From Sphingomonas sp. HMP9 (GTDB lineage: Bacteria > Pseudomonadota > Alphaproteobacteria > Sphingomonadales > Sphingomonadaceae), in NCBI RefSeq assembly GCF_013374115.1, contig NZ_AP022673.1, positions 393,501 through 457,500 on the forward strand: 64,000 nucleotides of DNA. The letters are read 5' to 3'. Positions 51,801-56,936 of the stretch are shown in pieces. Numbering within the stretch: position 1 is the first letter of the stretch; each line of letters begins with the position of its first letter. The notes under the pieces were generated by a model. The model worked only from the letters and a program-made list of their open reading frames with translations. It made no database searches and was not told the origin of the DNA. Position numbers and translations under genes: made by a program.

Positions 51801-54734
51801 TCACCCGGCGACGATCAAATCCCGGATGCGCGTGGCCAGGGCCTCCATCGCGAAAGGTTTGGTCATGACATGCATGCCCGGATCGAGATGGCCGTTGCCG
51901 ACGACCGCGTTCTCCGCATAGCCGGTGATGAAGAGGATCTTCAGGTCGGGGCGGGCAACGCGTGCCGCGTCGGCCATTTGCCGGCCGTTCATCCCGCCGG
52001 GCAGGCCGACGTCGGTGACCAGCAGGTCGACGCGGATGTCGGATTGCAACAGCTTCAACCCCGATGCACCGTCCGCGGCTTCGATCGCGGCATAGCCGAG
52101 CTCCTCGAGCACCTCCACCACCAGCATCCGGACGGTCGGTTCGTCGTCGACCACCAGCACGGTTTCCCCCGCATTCGCCCGCGGTGCGTCGGTGTGCTCG
52201 GGCAGCGTTTCGGTATCCTCGGCATCGCCGAAATGCCGGGGCAGATAGATGCACACGTTGGTGCCCTCGCCGACCTCGGAGTAGATCCGGACGTGTCCAC
52301 CGGATTGCCGCGCAAAGCCATAGATCATCGACAGGCCCAGCCCGGTGCCGAGACCCAGCGGCTTGGTCGTGAAAAAGGGATCGAATGCCTTGGCGATCAC
52401 GTCCGGAGTCATCCCCGTGCCGGTATCGGATACGCTCAACGACACATATTGCCCCGCATCGAGTTCACGCTCGCGCGCCGTCCTCGCGTCGATCCAGCGA
52501 TTGGCGGTCTCGATCGTCAGCCGCCCGCCGCCCGGCATCGCATCCCGCGCATTGATGCACAGGTTGAGCAACGCGTTCTCCAACTGGTGCGGATCGACCA
52601 AAGTCGTCCACAACCCGACCGAGGCGACGACCTCGACCTCGACCCCGGGGCCGACCGTGCGACGGACCAGATCCTCGAGACCCGCGACCAACCGGTTGAC
52701 GTCGGTCGGCTTGGGATCGAGTGTCTGTCGCCTGGAAAAGGCCAGCAGCCGGTGGGTCAGCGCCGCGGCGCGCTTGGCGGCGCCTTGCGCGGCCAGGGAA
52801 TAGCGCTCGACATCGTTCAGCCGGCCTTGCGCGATCCGTATGCCGAGCAGTTCCAAGCTCCCGGTAATACCGGTCAACAAGTTGTTGAAATCGTGCGCGA
52901 TCCCTCCGGTCAGCTGGCCGACCGCCTCCATCTTCTGGCTTTGCGGCAACGCCTCCTCGACTTGCATCAATTCGCGCGTGCGGGTTGCGACCTGGTCTTC
53001 CAGCGTCTCGTTCCATTGCGCCAGTTGCGCAGTCTGCCGGCGGCTGTCGTCGATGTCGGTATTGTTGCCGACCCAGCGCAAGATCTCGCCGTCATTGCCG
53101 CGCACCGGTTCGGCACGCACCAGGAACCAGCGATAGTCGCCGTTCGCGCCACGCACACGAAACTCGGCGGCATAGGAATCGCCGGTCGCCAGCGAGTGAC
53201 GCCATCGCTCCCCGGCCAGCGCCACGTCGTCGGGATGCATCAAGGTGACCCACACCTCGGTACCGTCGAGCTCGCCGGGTTTGAACCCATTATATGCGTA
53301 GACCTGCCGGTTGAACCAATAGAGATACCCGTCGGGCCGCGCCGCCCAGATCTGATTGGGGACGGCTTCGGCAAAGACCCGAAATTGTTCGTCACTGGCG
53401 CGTCGGGCGTCTTCTGCCCGCAGCCGCTCGCTGGCCGCCCGGACCCGCTCGGCAACTTCGCGGATCAGCACGAGGTCATCGTCGCTCCACAGGCGCGGCG
53501 TCGCGTCGTTGGTGTAGATCAACGCGACCAAATCGTCCTGCTCGACCAGCGGCATGTTGACGAACGAAGCCGCGCTGATCCCCTTGAGCATGTCGGCCGT
53601 CTCGCGGGTCCGCGGATCATGATCGACATCGGCGATGGTCACGGTCCGGCCGGCTTTCAGGTCTTCGATATACGAACCATAGTCCCGAAACTGGAGCGTT
53701 CCGGCCAGCGTCGTGATGCCCGGCGCATTCCAGTCGCGCTCGACGGCGATCGTCTCGCGCACCTTGTCGATAACGCCGTAGCCGACCCGGCTCACCTGGA
53801 GCGCCTTGCCCAGGATCTCGGAGGCAGCATAGGCAATCGCGTCGGGATCGGTCAGGTCGCGGATCGCGTCGCCAAGATTCAACAAAGCGTTTTGTCGGAG
53901 CTCCGCCTGCTTGCGCTGGGTGATATCGAAGCTGACACCGGGAAACCGCGATGGCGTGCCATCGGCGGCGAACCGGCAGCGGCCCTGCGCGGCGACCCAG
54001 CGGACCGCGCCGTCAGGCTGCACGAGACGGTACTCGGCCGTGAAATCGCCATCGCCCTCGAGCGCATCGGCGATCGCCGCGCGGGTGCCGGGAAGATCGT
54101 CGGGATGAATGCCACCAAAGAACCGTTCGAGCGGTGCCCCCTTGCGACCGAGTTCCTCAGGGACGCCGTATAGTCGCGAGAACCGCTCGTCCGCCTTCAC
54201 GCGATCGTTCGGGATGTCCCAGTCCCATGTACCGATGCCGTTGCCGGCCGCGAGCGCCTGGTTGAGCCGTTCCTCGCTTTCCTGCGTGGCGATGGCCGCA
54301 CGACGGTACGCCGATACGTCGGTGAACAGCACCGCGACGAGGCGCGGTGTCCCCGAACCGACGGGAAAGGCATGAACGTCGAACCACCGGTCCATCGCGT
54401 CGGAACCGTGATCGAACCGCGCCGGCTCGCCAGTCAGCGCGACCTTGGCATAGGCGTCGAACCAGAAGCGCTCCAGATCGGGAACGAGTTCGCCGGCCGT
54501 CCGACCGACCGCGTCGACCAGGCCAGTCTGACTTTCGAACTGCGGATTGACCTCGACGAACCGGTAATCGACCGCGCGATCGCCATCGAACACCATTTCG
54601 ATGATGCAGAACCCCGCGTCGATCGCTTCGAACAGCGCGTCGTATCGCTCCTGCGCTGGATTGACGGTACCAGCTTCAATCGTCGGTCGGTGCATCGGAT
54701 CTCGAAGGTCGGAGGGCGCGACCTTATGCAACAT
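51801..54734 (-). CDS. PAS/GAF hybrid sensor histidine kinase with receiver
   Basis: From ATG 54734 the protein has 977 residues. Order: PAS (about 20-140), PAS/PAC (155-275, HPDDLPGTRAAIADAL, GVSFDITQRKQAE), GAF (290-440, AASEILGKALQVSRVGYGVI), PAS/PAC (455-580, NRQVYAYNGFKPGE), coiled linker, HisKA with phospho-His in LTGGIAHDFNNLLTGITG, HATPase (NLCINARDAMPGGG, GTGLGLSMIYGFARQSG) and a C-terminal receiver with Asp in LLVTDVGLPGGMNG and Lys in MTKPFAME. No membrane helix, so cytosolic. The frame also opens at ATG 54755 and 54749, but those lie inside the IS end; 54734 abuts it. The signal is unknown; GAF and PAS suggest light or redox. Confidence 0.86.
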   Translation of the reverse strand: MLHKVAPSDLRDPMHRPTIEAGTVNPAQERYDALFEAIDAGFCIIEMVFDGDRAVDYRFVEVNPQFESQTGLVDAVGRTAGELVPDLERFWFDAYAKVALTGEPARFDHGSDAMDRWFDVHAFPVGSGTPRLVAVLFTDVSAYRRAAIATQESEERLNQALAAGNGIGTWDWDIPNDRVKADERFSRLYGVPEELGRKGAPLERFFGGIHPDDLPGTRAAIADALEGDGDFTAEYRLVQPDGAVRWVAAQGRCRFAADGTPSRFPGVSFDITQRKQAELRQNALLNLGDAIRDLTDPDAIAYAASEILGKALQVSRVGYGVIDKVRETIAVERDWNAPGITTLAGTLQFRDYGSYIEDLKAGRTVTIADVDHDPRTRETADMLKGISAASFVNMPLVEQDDLVALIYTNDATPRLWSDDDLVLIREVAERVRAASERLRAEDARRASDEQFRVFAEAVPNQIWAARPDGYLYWFNRQVYAYNGFKPGELDGTEVWVTLMHPDDVALAGERWRHSLATGDSYAAEFRVRGANGDYRWFLVRAEPVRGNDGEILRWVGNNTDIDDSRRQTAQLAQWNETLEDQVATRTRELMQVEEALPQSQKMEAVGQLTGGIAHDFNNLLTGITGSLELLGIRIAQGRLNDVERYSLAAQGAAKRAAALTHRLLAFSRRQTLDPKPTDVNRLVAGLEDLVRRTVGPGVEVEVVASVGLWTTLVDPHQLENALLNLCINARDAMPGGGRLTIETANRWIDARTARERELDAGQYVSLSVSDTGTGMTPDVIAKAFDPFFTTKPLGLGTGLGLSMIYGFARQSGGHVRIYSEVGEGTNVCIYLPRHFGDAEDTETLPEHTDAPRANAGETVLVVDDEPTVRMLVVEVLEELGYAAIEAADGASGLKLLQSDIRVDLLVTDVGLPGGMNGRQMADAARVARPDLKILFITGYAENAVVGNGHLDPGMHVMTKPFAMEALATRIRDLIVAG

Positions 54735-54747
54735 ATGTAACCGCCCC

Positions 54748-54991
54748 ATACGCAAGAGGGTTTTTGAAACTCGTTGTGGCGCGTGTCGGGTGCTGACATA
54801 TGTCCGGCCTCATGATGCGGCCTTACAACTGCCGCGGGCCCGTATGGTGTTCGCAGGTCGGGTCCAGATCAAAGCCGCGTGCTCGAAGGCACTCTGTTGC
54901 AAACTGGTTTTCCCGATCCCCGTCTCACGACCGTTGCGCCAAACTGCTCCTTGCCCTCGTACGCTCCGACGCCTCGCGACTGACGGTCGGC
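54748..54991 (-). ncRNA. Candidate IS110-family guide (bridge/seek) RNA region
   Basis: This 244-bp non-coding 3' segment between the transposase stop and the inverted repeat is where IS1111-group elements encode the structured RNA that guides target choice. Hairpin-capable stretches are visible, e.g. ggcctcatgatgcggcc near 54804-54820 and gactgacggtcggc near 54978. The exact RNA ends cannot be read. Confidence 0.4.
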
Positions 54992-56023
54992 TTATGCCGC
55001 CGCAGCCGGAGCCCGGTAACTTTCACCCTTGATCATCAACGCCCAGGCGACGCGCGCCATCTTGTTGGCCAGCGCGACACGGACGAGCATCGACGGCTTG
55101 CGCGACAGCATTCCTGCCAGCCAGGTGCCCGGTCGAGCTGCCTGATGGACACTCCGTTTGATGATGACGCTGTTGGCCCCGATGATCAGGAGGCGGCGCA
55201 GGGATCGCTCGCCCATCTTCGTCGTTGCCCCAAGGCGTTGCTTGCCGCCCGTTGAGTGTTGTCGCGGCACGAGGCCGAGCCAGGCCGCGAAATCGCGGCC
55301 GCGACGGAACGTCTCCGGTGGTGGGGCCAGCACCGCGATGGCTGTGGCGATCAGGGGACCGATGCCGGGGATCGTCATCAACCTTTGCGCGACTTCATTC
55401 TCTTTAGCGCGATGGGTGATTTCGGCGTTCAGCTTCTCGATCTGCGCGTCGAGGCCGACGAGCGCGTCGACAAGCACCCGGAATGTCGCAACAGCCTGAG
55501 CAGGCAGGCCGCTGTCCGGATCATCCACAATGGCAATCAGGCGGGAGATATTTGCAGCGCCTTTGGGCACCACCTTGCCGAACTCTGTCAAATGGCCGCG
55601 CAAGGCGTTAATCGCCTGGGTGCGCTGCCGGATCATCAACTCCCTGACCCGGAACACCGAGGCAGCTCCCTGTACCTCTTCGCTCTTCACCGGCACGAAG
55701 CGCATCGATGGGCGTTGCGCCGCCTCGCAGATCGCCTCGGCGTCCGCCGCATCATTTTTCTGCCGCTTCACAAAAGGCTTCACATACGCCGGCGGGATCA
55801 GGCGAACCTCATGGCCCAGAAGGGCAATCTTCCGCCCCCAGAAATGCGAGCCTCCGCAAGCCTCCATCGCGACCGTGCACGGCGGAAGCGTACTGAAGAA
55901 CGGCAGCAACTGATCCCGGCTCAGCTTCTTGCGCAGGATCGCATGACCCGCTCCATCAGCCCCGTGGACTTGGAACACTCTCTTCGCCAGATCGAGTCCG
56001 ATCGTAACAATCTCCGACATCAC
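54992..56023 (-). CDS. IS110-family DEDD transposase
   Basis: A 343-residue recombinase. The N-terminal RuvC-like DEDD domain shows Asp in IVTIGLDLAKRVFQVHG (about residue 11), Glu in TVAMEACGGSHFWG, and the Asp pair in KNDAADAEAICEAA (about 95). The C-terminal Tnp20 domain has IPGIGPLIATAIAV and FAAWLGLVPRQHSTGGKQRL with a Ser in the catalytic region (LGATTKMGERSLRRLL). Length is normal and the frame intact, so the element may be active. It is on the same strand as its flanking genes. Confidence 0.92.
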   Translation of the reverse strand: MMSEIVTIGLDLAKRVFQVHGADGAGHAILRKKLSRDQLLPFFSTLPPCTVAMEACGGSHFWGRKIALLGHEVRLIPPAYVKPFVKRQKNDAADAEAICEAAQRPSMRFVPVKSEEVQGAASVFRVRELMIRQRTQAINALRGHLTEFGKVVPKGAANISRLIAIVDDPDSGLPAQAVATFRVLVDALVGLDAQIEKLNAEITHRAKENEVAQRLMTIPGIGPLIATAIAVLAPPPETFRRGRDFAAWLGLVPRQHSTGGKQRLGATTKMGERSLRRLLIIGANSVIIKRSVHQAARPGTWLAGMLSRKPSMLVRVALANKMARVAWALMIKGESYRAPAAAA

Positions 56024-56135
56024 CGCACTCCTCCATCAGTTGAAGACCCCCGTTTCCACTTTAATGCCGTCGGGGGGCGGTTACATCATCAAGGCCGGCG
56101 AAAAAAACGCTTAAAAGATAGATCCGATCCCGCGG

Positions 56136-56936
56136 TCAGATCCGGCGTGCGCCGATCCGCTCGAGCGCGACCGGCAGCACGCGGGCAAGGCGATCGGCCC
56201 ATGCGGCGCAATTCTCGGCAGACGCCAACAGGTCCTGTCGTATCTCGATCTCGGCGTACGCGCGGGCTGGGTAGGCATGCCGCGGAACGGTGTAGTCGAT
56301 CAGGTCCATCCGATAGGGTTCGTTGTCGCCGACGATAAGGTCGCCTTCGGTCCGCAACACCGCGAGCAGCGCCTGCGCGAATCTCGTATCGCCACCGTCG
56401 TGGAGAATGCCGATCTGCCATGGCCGCGCCTGATCCCGCAGCGGCCCGCGCATCATCGGGGTAAAACTGTGCAACGCGATCACCGCCGTCGGCAGGTCGC
56501 GTGCGTCACGGCGCGCCAGTTCTGCGTCGATCGCGGCGTGATACGGCTCGTGGATCTCGGCGAAGCGTGCCGCGCGATCCGCCTCGCTGAGCGCAGCATT
56601 CCCGGGCACGACTGTGTCGTCGCTGACCGCAGCGATGACGTCCGCTTGGTCGGGGCTTCGGTTGCAGTCGATCACCAGCCGTGAATAGGTCTGGCGCACG
56701 AACACCGCGTCGACGCGCTCCGCCAGCAACGCCCCGAGCTCGCCGATGCCGATGTCCCAGCCGATATGGCGGGACAGATCCGCGTCGCTCAGGCCCAGCG
56801 TCCCGAGCAGGGCCGGTACCGCTTTCCCCGCATGGTCGCCGATCAGCAGGAACGATGACGCGCCTGCCGGGTTGATCACCGTGACCGGAGAGGTATCCTC
56901 GGTCGTAAGCAGCGTTTGGCTGGCAGTGCTGTTCAT
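56136..56936 (-). CDS. N-formylglutamate amidohydrolase family protein
   Basis: A 266-residue protein of the FGase family (zinc-dependent amidohydrolases related to HutG). Family motifs: FLLIGDHAGKAVPALLGTLG, DIGIGELGALLAERVDAVFV, YSRLVIDCNRSP, IHEPYHAAIDAELARR and AVIALHSFTPMMRGPLRDQA. No other histidine-utilisation gene is near, so the exact substrate is uncertain. The start is just 16 bp from the divergent transglutaminase start, which is tight. Before IS insertion its stop would have been about 50 bp from the kinase start, so an operon with the kinase is likely. Confidence 0.8.
   Translation of the reverse strand: MNSTASQTLLTTEDTSPVTVINPAGASSFLLIGDHAGKAVPALLGTLGLSDADLSRHIGWDIGIGELGALLAERVDAVFVRQTYSRLVIDCNRSPDQADVIAAVSDDTVVPGNAALSEADRAARFAEIHEPYHAAIDAELARRDARDLPTAVIALHSFTPMMRGPLRDQARPWQIGILHDGGDTRFAQALLAVLRTEGDLIVGDNEPYRMDLIDYTVPRHAYPARAYAEIEIRQDLLASAENCAAWADRLARVLPVALERIGARRI

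Follow-up and report, generated by a model that had tools for sequence, protein, structure and literature searches.

An IS1111-group insertion sequence and its ends

The window, by which we mean the whole analysed stretch of 64,000 nucleotides of Sphingomonas sp. HMP9, carries an IS1111-group insertion sequence on its minus strand (54734-56091; 1358 bp including one 2-bp core copy on the right side). The gene of this element (54992-56023, minus strand) encodes a DEDD transposase of 343 aa in a fully open frame. Its translation matches PF01548 and PF02371, scores 331 bits against a cut-off of 140 with the NCBIfam model 'IS110 family RNA-guided transposase' (NF033542), and presents the GL-P----(S/T)G motif, as given in the available text of PMC11187229, in the form GLVPRQHSTG. 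An earlier note had described an intact DEDD transposase at this locus, which these results confirm.

The gene is bracketed, as that note had claimed, by a perfect 13-bp inverted repeat, the left copy of which (54735-54747, plus strand) lies at the 3' end in the RNA sense and the right copy (56074-56086, minus strand) at the 5' end. The non-coding spaces between repeats and gene are exactly as asymmetric as it had stated, 244 bp on the 3' side (54748-54991) versus 50 bp on the 5' side (56024-56073), and the proposed membership of the IS1111 group is supported. The repeat alone is weak evidence, because 18 inverted exact 13-mer pairs lie 0.5-2.5 kb apart in the window, some of them overlapping shifts of one longer pair. 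Proof of an element comes from the search of the same genome, which yielded six more copies, identical to that of the window over all 1352 bp (54735-56086). Short matches of 74-77% at three other loci of the genome (L008, L009, L010) are probably other IS110-family genes or remnants.

Since about 10 bp beyond the repeat on each side are common to all seven copies, the copies alone do not settle the ends, which were read from uninterrupted sites. The pre-insertion sequence of the window site is ..CCTTATGCAA-CA-AGGCCGGCG.., and its uninterrupted orthologue in a genome of the same genus (L151) reads ..CCTTACGCAACAAGGCCGGCG.., also given as ..GCGACCTTACGCAACAAGGCCGGCG... The joint is crossed without interruption in 7 of the 29 related loci searched (L151, L155, L160, L163, L165, L166 and L167). 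A second comparison is provided by ISPko1-type elements of Paracoccus with bare ends GGCTCTGTTGCACAAATC (L064, L067) and by Haematobacter locus L068, where both inner ends run on from an IS1111-type element as ..TTACACATGTTGCACAAATC. These empty sites place the element at 54734-56091, so that it exceeds the left repeat by 1 bp and the right one by 3 bp and a single core of 2 bp, this core being CA (TG in the RNA sense). The target duplication is limited to this core, whose left (54732-54733) and right (56090-56091) copies are the sole duplicated stretch in comparison with the empty site.

The earlier note was thus right in calling the element complete, but its ends were off by 1 and 5 bp, the repeat being subterminal. 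The target junction can be reconstructed, as it had held, although the version proposed, cgccggccttgatg joined to atgttgcataagg, carries six extra bases of element or core copy. A first target pattern taken from the raw flanks, with these six bases, found two matches in the genome with two mismatches each and was corrected by means of the empty sites. A clearly different boundary in other copies, which the earlier note had named as a refutation, was not observed: all seven copies include the 13-bp repeat in their common boundary, extended by short asymmetric stretches such as those described for IS1111 elements in the available text of PMC11187229. The features of the group that we examined are present: the 343-aa DEDD transposase, the 13-bp subterminal repeats, their extensions (1 and 3 bp, not counting the core), non-coding DNA that is longer behind the gene (258 bp) than before it (about 50 bp) and a specific target.

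Copies within IS5-family ends

All copies but that of the window occur as pairs, at three loci (L011, L012, L013), each pair in opposite orientation around about 1.04 kb that includes a gene for an IS5-family transposase (NF033579, 364 bits). Both terminal repeats of this IS5-family host contain an IS1111-type copy, which makes six copies in the six ends of three host copies, and the host occurs in the genome only as these three doubly occupied copies. With the IS1111-type copies removed, its ends read GGCTTTG-TTGCATAACG and GGCTTTG-TTGCAAAACT. A search of the genome for GGCYTTGTTGCAWA with at most one mismatch found no vacant site; sites with two mismatches number 24 (29 for the backward control). 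No tRNA was found in the array loci L011-L013.

The three arrays are identical over 3764 bp except for one gap in the wider alignment. The L012 array is flanked by a perfect 9-bp target duplication, AACTGTCAG; its left flank has an orthologue in none of five related genomes, so that its empty site was not seen. At L013 the duplication matches at 8 of 9 positions, and a single copy of it is found at the empty site in genome G040 (L195). The L011 array (L011:3018-6781), unlike the other two, shows no target duplication, and its right flank has no match beside the left flank in any of five related genomes.

The copy of the window occupies a native chromosomal site, GGCCTTG-TTGCATAAGG (also given as GGCCTTGTTGCATAAGG), which resembles the IS5-family terminal repeat. 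Of the ORFs around it, judged by eye, we take one to be amidohydrolase-like and one to be PAS-type histidine kinase-like; the latter has its first ATG (54695) about 38 bp downstream of the element. The insertion parts the downstream minus-strand ORF (51801-54755) from its native upstream region and supplies an in-frame TTG within the element (54740-54755) as a new start.

A predicted guide RNA and its target

The earlier note had proposed a candidate guide RNA for the 3' non-coding segment. Our data support this proposal through both a covarying fold and a match between guide and flank. Minimum-energy folds of the 3' non-coding region (54734-54991, minus strand, 258 nt) and of a 198-nt stretch present an internal loop closed by CCAG/CUGG with a GUGC/GCAC hairpin inside, a loop which was not seen in the folds of three shorter pieces (three of the five pieces tried). 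The predicted target-binding loop (54864-54907, minus strand) has the form CCAG-[9 nt]-GA-GUGC..GCAC-GC-[7 nt]-AU-CUGG, and the minus strand from 54907 to 54864 reads CCAG-UUUGCAACA-GA-GUGC-CUUCGA-GCAC-GC-GGCUUUG-AU-CUGG.

The suggested comparison of guide loops with the flanks finds both target halves in this one internal loop, at 54903-54895 and 54876-54870. The 5' guide UUUGCAACA (54895-54903, minus strand) has the complement TGTTGCAAA, which is the core with the inner target half (TG TTGCAAA), and the 3' guide GGCUUUG (54870-54876, minus strand) is in the same sense as the outer target half with the core (GGCTT TG). One end of the IS5-family host matches the two guides at 9/9 and 7/7 positions and the other at 8/9 and 7/7. 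The window site matches at 8/9 and at 7/7 with one G-U, i.e. with one mismatch and one wobble. The two guides, for opposite strands, follow each other as they do in IS1111 elements according to the part of PMC11187229 available to us.

Rfam searches of the four own-genome loci gave no hit at or above a family's gathering score; the one weak hit on 54500-56300 (E up to 5), to a human lncRNA family, was below it as well and was discarded. In an alignment of 41 relatives, RNAalifold predicted 20 pairs, nine of them with two-sided change; the outer CCAG/CUGG helix, with 80.4% of its cells paired, was not among them. For 16 named pairs, 93.2% of cells were paired versus 86.4 in shuffled controls, and 10 of the 16 showed two-sided changes versus 4.6; none of 500 shuffles was as high in either measure, with the structure partly taken from the same alignment, so that sliding controls favour it. 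The number of further pair types was not unusual, being reached by 52 of 500 shuffles. These results indicate that the predicted RNA fold covaries and is a secondary structure conserved among the relatives, so that the second refuting condition of the earlier note, a 3' segment lacking conserved structure, does not hold either.

Two further stretches of the non-coding region may bind the donor. The stretch ACAUAUG (54797-54803, minus strand) is identical to the 3' end of the element (ACATA) with the core TG, and it follows the element end in relatives, appearing as ACATATG, ACACATG, ACAGATG or ATACATG. In a permutation test the own value was 12.15 versus 11.39 (sd 0.08), which concerns this 3' donor guide, its 5' partner having been read by eye from the 41-relative alignment. 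ACAUAUG is therefore a likely donor-binding guide, while ACACCAU (54844-54850, minus strand), which pairs at 6/7 positions with the 5' end ATGATGT, is a tentative second one.

We then compared guides and flanks across relatives, starting from 120 loci in which tblastn gave 140 hits, 107 of them to full-length transposases in 101 loci. Ends were resolved for 51 of the 107 (48 unique, 41 with unique non-coding regions), and the 56 whose ends the finder did not resolve were dropped. The finder demands a TG core, which is imposed on the relatives equally in true and permuted pairs; the core itself rests on the empty sites. Across the 41 elements, guides scored 14.78 of 18 against their own flanks versus 12.70 (sd 0.152) against permuted ones, the highest of 20000 permutations reaching 13.35, and control targets gave 12.5 when reversed and 12.76 when reverse-complemented. 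The 29 distant elements alone (<69% identity) behaved similarly (14.53 versus 12.51). Only 12 of the 41 scored their own flank best or tied; the set kept an L061 copy with an interrupted outer end, which scores badly on that side. With structure-defined guides, 14 close elements scored 14.86 of 16 versus 14.09 (sd 0.15), and none of 50000 permutations was as high. This test left out L061 (the same kind of element as L062), L086 (68-69% identical, with a different sequence in the stem) and L201-L206.

Single substitutions illustrate the same pattern. The 3' guide GGCUUUG stands beside GGCTTTG flanks, GGCCUUG (L070) beside GGCCTTG, GGCUCUG (L073) beside CGCTCTG, and GGCGUUG (L200, L201) beside GGCGTTG; at L058 the guide UGCGCAACA stands beside the flank TGCGCAACA. 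One relative carries the 5' guide UGUGCAACA, which would prefer the target GGCTCTGTTGCACA. Some guides are imperfect: the 5' guide of L087 is mismatched at two positions and its 3' guide at one, as is the 3' guide of L059. As read from these alignments, changes of the predicted guide accompany changes of the target across relatives, and the guide predicts the sites. This covarying match is established by sequence comparison, as are the ends, the core and the copies.

Proposed homing on transposon ends, its rivals and its precedents

Based on these results, we consider it very probable that the locus holds a complete, probably active RNA-guided element of the IS1111 group that homes on the terminal inverted repeats of IS5-family elements, and that the arrays arose by guided insertion. 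An RNA (seekRNA or bridge RNA) would be made from the 3' non-coding region and used by the DEDD transposase, and in its single internal loop the 9-nt guide would pair with one target strand and the 7-nt guide with the other. The target, GGCTT-TG-TTGCAAA in form, would have its TG core read by both guides; in full it can be written as GGCTTTGTTGCAAAAC, and GGCTTTGTTGCAAA-like sites would be preferred. Insertion would take place at TG and leave the core on both sides, probably by way of an excised circle with the predicted junction GGGGCGGTTACATA-TG-ATGATGTAACCGCCCC. We infer the production of the RNA, its binding by the transposase and the passage through the circle. With a target that is the terminal inverted repeat of an IS5-family element, such an element could home into either end, and an IS1111-IS5-IS1111 array would result when both ends of one host are struck. 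The window copy would represent insertion into a native chromosomal look-alike of the repeat. Most copies would then sit inside IS5-family ends, and form sandwich arrays, because the guide matches those ends.

The relatives present the same preference. Among 13 close relatives with resolved ends (transposase 68-82% identical), an intact or decayed IS5-family transposase sequence lies on the inner side in 12 (11 found by tblastn, L059 through its annotation); it starts at most 70 bp from the junction in 10 of the 13, and none was found on the inner side of L073. Both IS5-family ends are occupied in L061, L062, L089 and L200, and a single end in L060, L072, L141 and L207. In L207, a decayed copy of Novosphingobium, the guide GGCGCAACA fits the occupied end TTGCGCAAATG better than the free end TTGCATAGATC. 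In L072, the guide would fit the free end GCTTTGTTGCACAAAG and the occupied end equally well, which indicates that occupancy is not fully explained by the guide. The distant L124 (58%) and L130 (53%) lie in the same terminal-repeat motif one base over, GGCTYTGT-TG-CACAAATC, with their own different guides, and may represent a second, independent route to the same target, a possible case of convergence.

The alternative that survives best, which we nevertheless regard as unlikely, is that the arrays are composite transposons which move as one 3764-bp unit through the IS5-family transposase, so that the guide match would concern the origin of the first array only. The near identity of the three arrays and the duplications at L012 and L013, the latter with one copy in the empty site of G040, are in keeping with such movement, and six occupied ends out of six would need fewer events. 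The same duplications are expected, however, if the IS5-family element moved first and was struck later. In every host the terminal repeats are interrupted at 7 bp from the tip, hosts with one occupied end exist in relatives (L060, L072, L141, L207), L011 has no duplication, and the window copy is an insertion without any array, all of which speak against such movement.

It is far less probable that the element is dead and that its copies spread by duplication of larger segments or gene conversion: three of the four places do share the 3764 bp, and L011 lacks a duplication and has a right flank unmatched beside the left in the five related genomes, yet the copy of the window is solitary, its site being empty in related genomes, and the transposase frame is open in full. 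The idea that the common flanks of about 10 bp per side belong to the element, its insertion not being sequence-guided, has next to no probability left, since the same bases occur without an element in L151 and at both ends of L064 and L067, which already refutes it, and the flanks vary between relatives with the guides following.

Settlement in transposon ends has a precedent: Partridge and Hall are said to have described in 2003 the IS1111 elements IS4321 and IS5075, which insert in the terminal inverted repeats of Tn21-family transposons. Both kinds settle in transposon ends, but the hosts here are IS5-family insertion sequences, which form a second host class for such elements. The guided insertion proposed here would follow the published seekRNA/bridge-RNA mechanism (PMC11187229 and PMC11208160, as far as their available text goes), and its novelty lies in the target class and in the explanation of the arrays. 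The IS1111-group seekRNA elements ISEc11, ISPa11 and ISKpn4 (Siddiquee et al. 2024, PMC11187229, available text) resemble the present element in their 11-13 bp subterminal repeats, a 330-350 aa transposase with GL-P----S(t)G, a longer downstream non-coding region, and a 5' guide for one strand that precedes a 3' guide for the opposite one, the two overlapping on the target. They differ in their target, and the RNA here is predicted from sequence. IS621, as described in the accessible part of PMC11208160 (solved structures 8wt6 and others), likewise has a two-loop bridge RNA, a 2-nt core and a DEDD recombinase with PF02371, but belongs to the IS110 group, with the guide upstream of the gene and the core CT, in contrast to the downstream position and TG here. 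ISPmar4 of Paracoccus, a 1343-bp IS1111-group element, has a similar repeat, ATGGc/tCCGCCCC (PMC3832669, accessible part).

A close parallel is ISPye46 of Paracoccus yeei, whose 1361-bp IS110-family copies point outwards on either side of IS5-family or IS256-family transposase genes, with TG repeats flanking (PMC11578231, accessible part). In that part, the question whether the arrays are functional elements or products of preferential transposition is left open, and BLASTn showed none elsewhere. We found no other paper in the open-licence literature on IS5-family ends as a target of IS1111 elements. The same IS110-IS5-IS110 layout occurs here in an unrelated genome as well as in Haematobacter and other Paracoccus records. 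Its coincidence with a predictive guide favours preferential, RNA-guided insertion over transposon arrays, which offers an answer from sequence to the question posed in 2024. The locus is also a natural case in which an RNA-guided transposon can be read cleanly, its guide predicting the sites, and the 41 guide-flank pairs are a resource for programming rules.

More tentatively, and with slightly less than even confidence, we suggest that a lineage of RNA-guided IS1111 elements in Alphaproteobacteria may be parasites of other insertion sequences. Their guides would track the changing IS5-family terminal repeats base by base and occupy all findable ends, probably crippling the movement of the host, with the arrays as a by-product.

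On a plasmid of Paracoccus aerodenitrificans, a second IS1111-type element, 54% identical, lies at the outer junction of the first (L061:3854-5290); its flanks, GGCTCTGA-TG-ATGTGACCGCCCC, are the seam between the IS5-family end and the IS1111-type element, and its predicted guide fits this seam. On a P. yeei plasmid (L200:2034-4764 and L200:1-1000), the IS1111-type copies beside the IS5-family element are each interrupted, or seemingly so, by another IS110-family element, which separates target loop and donor loop within their non-coding region.
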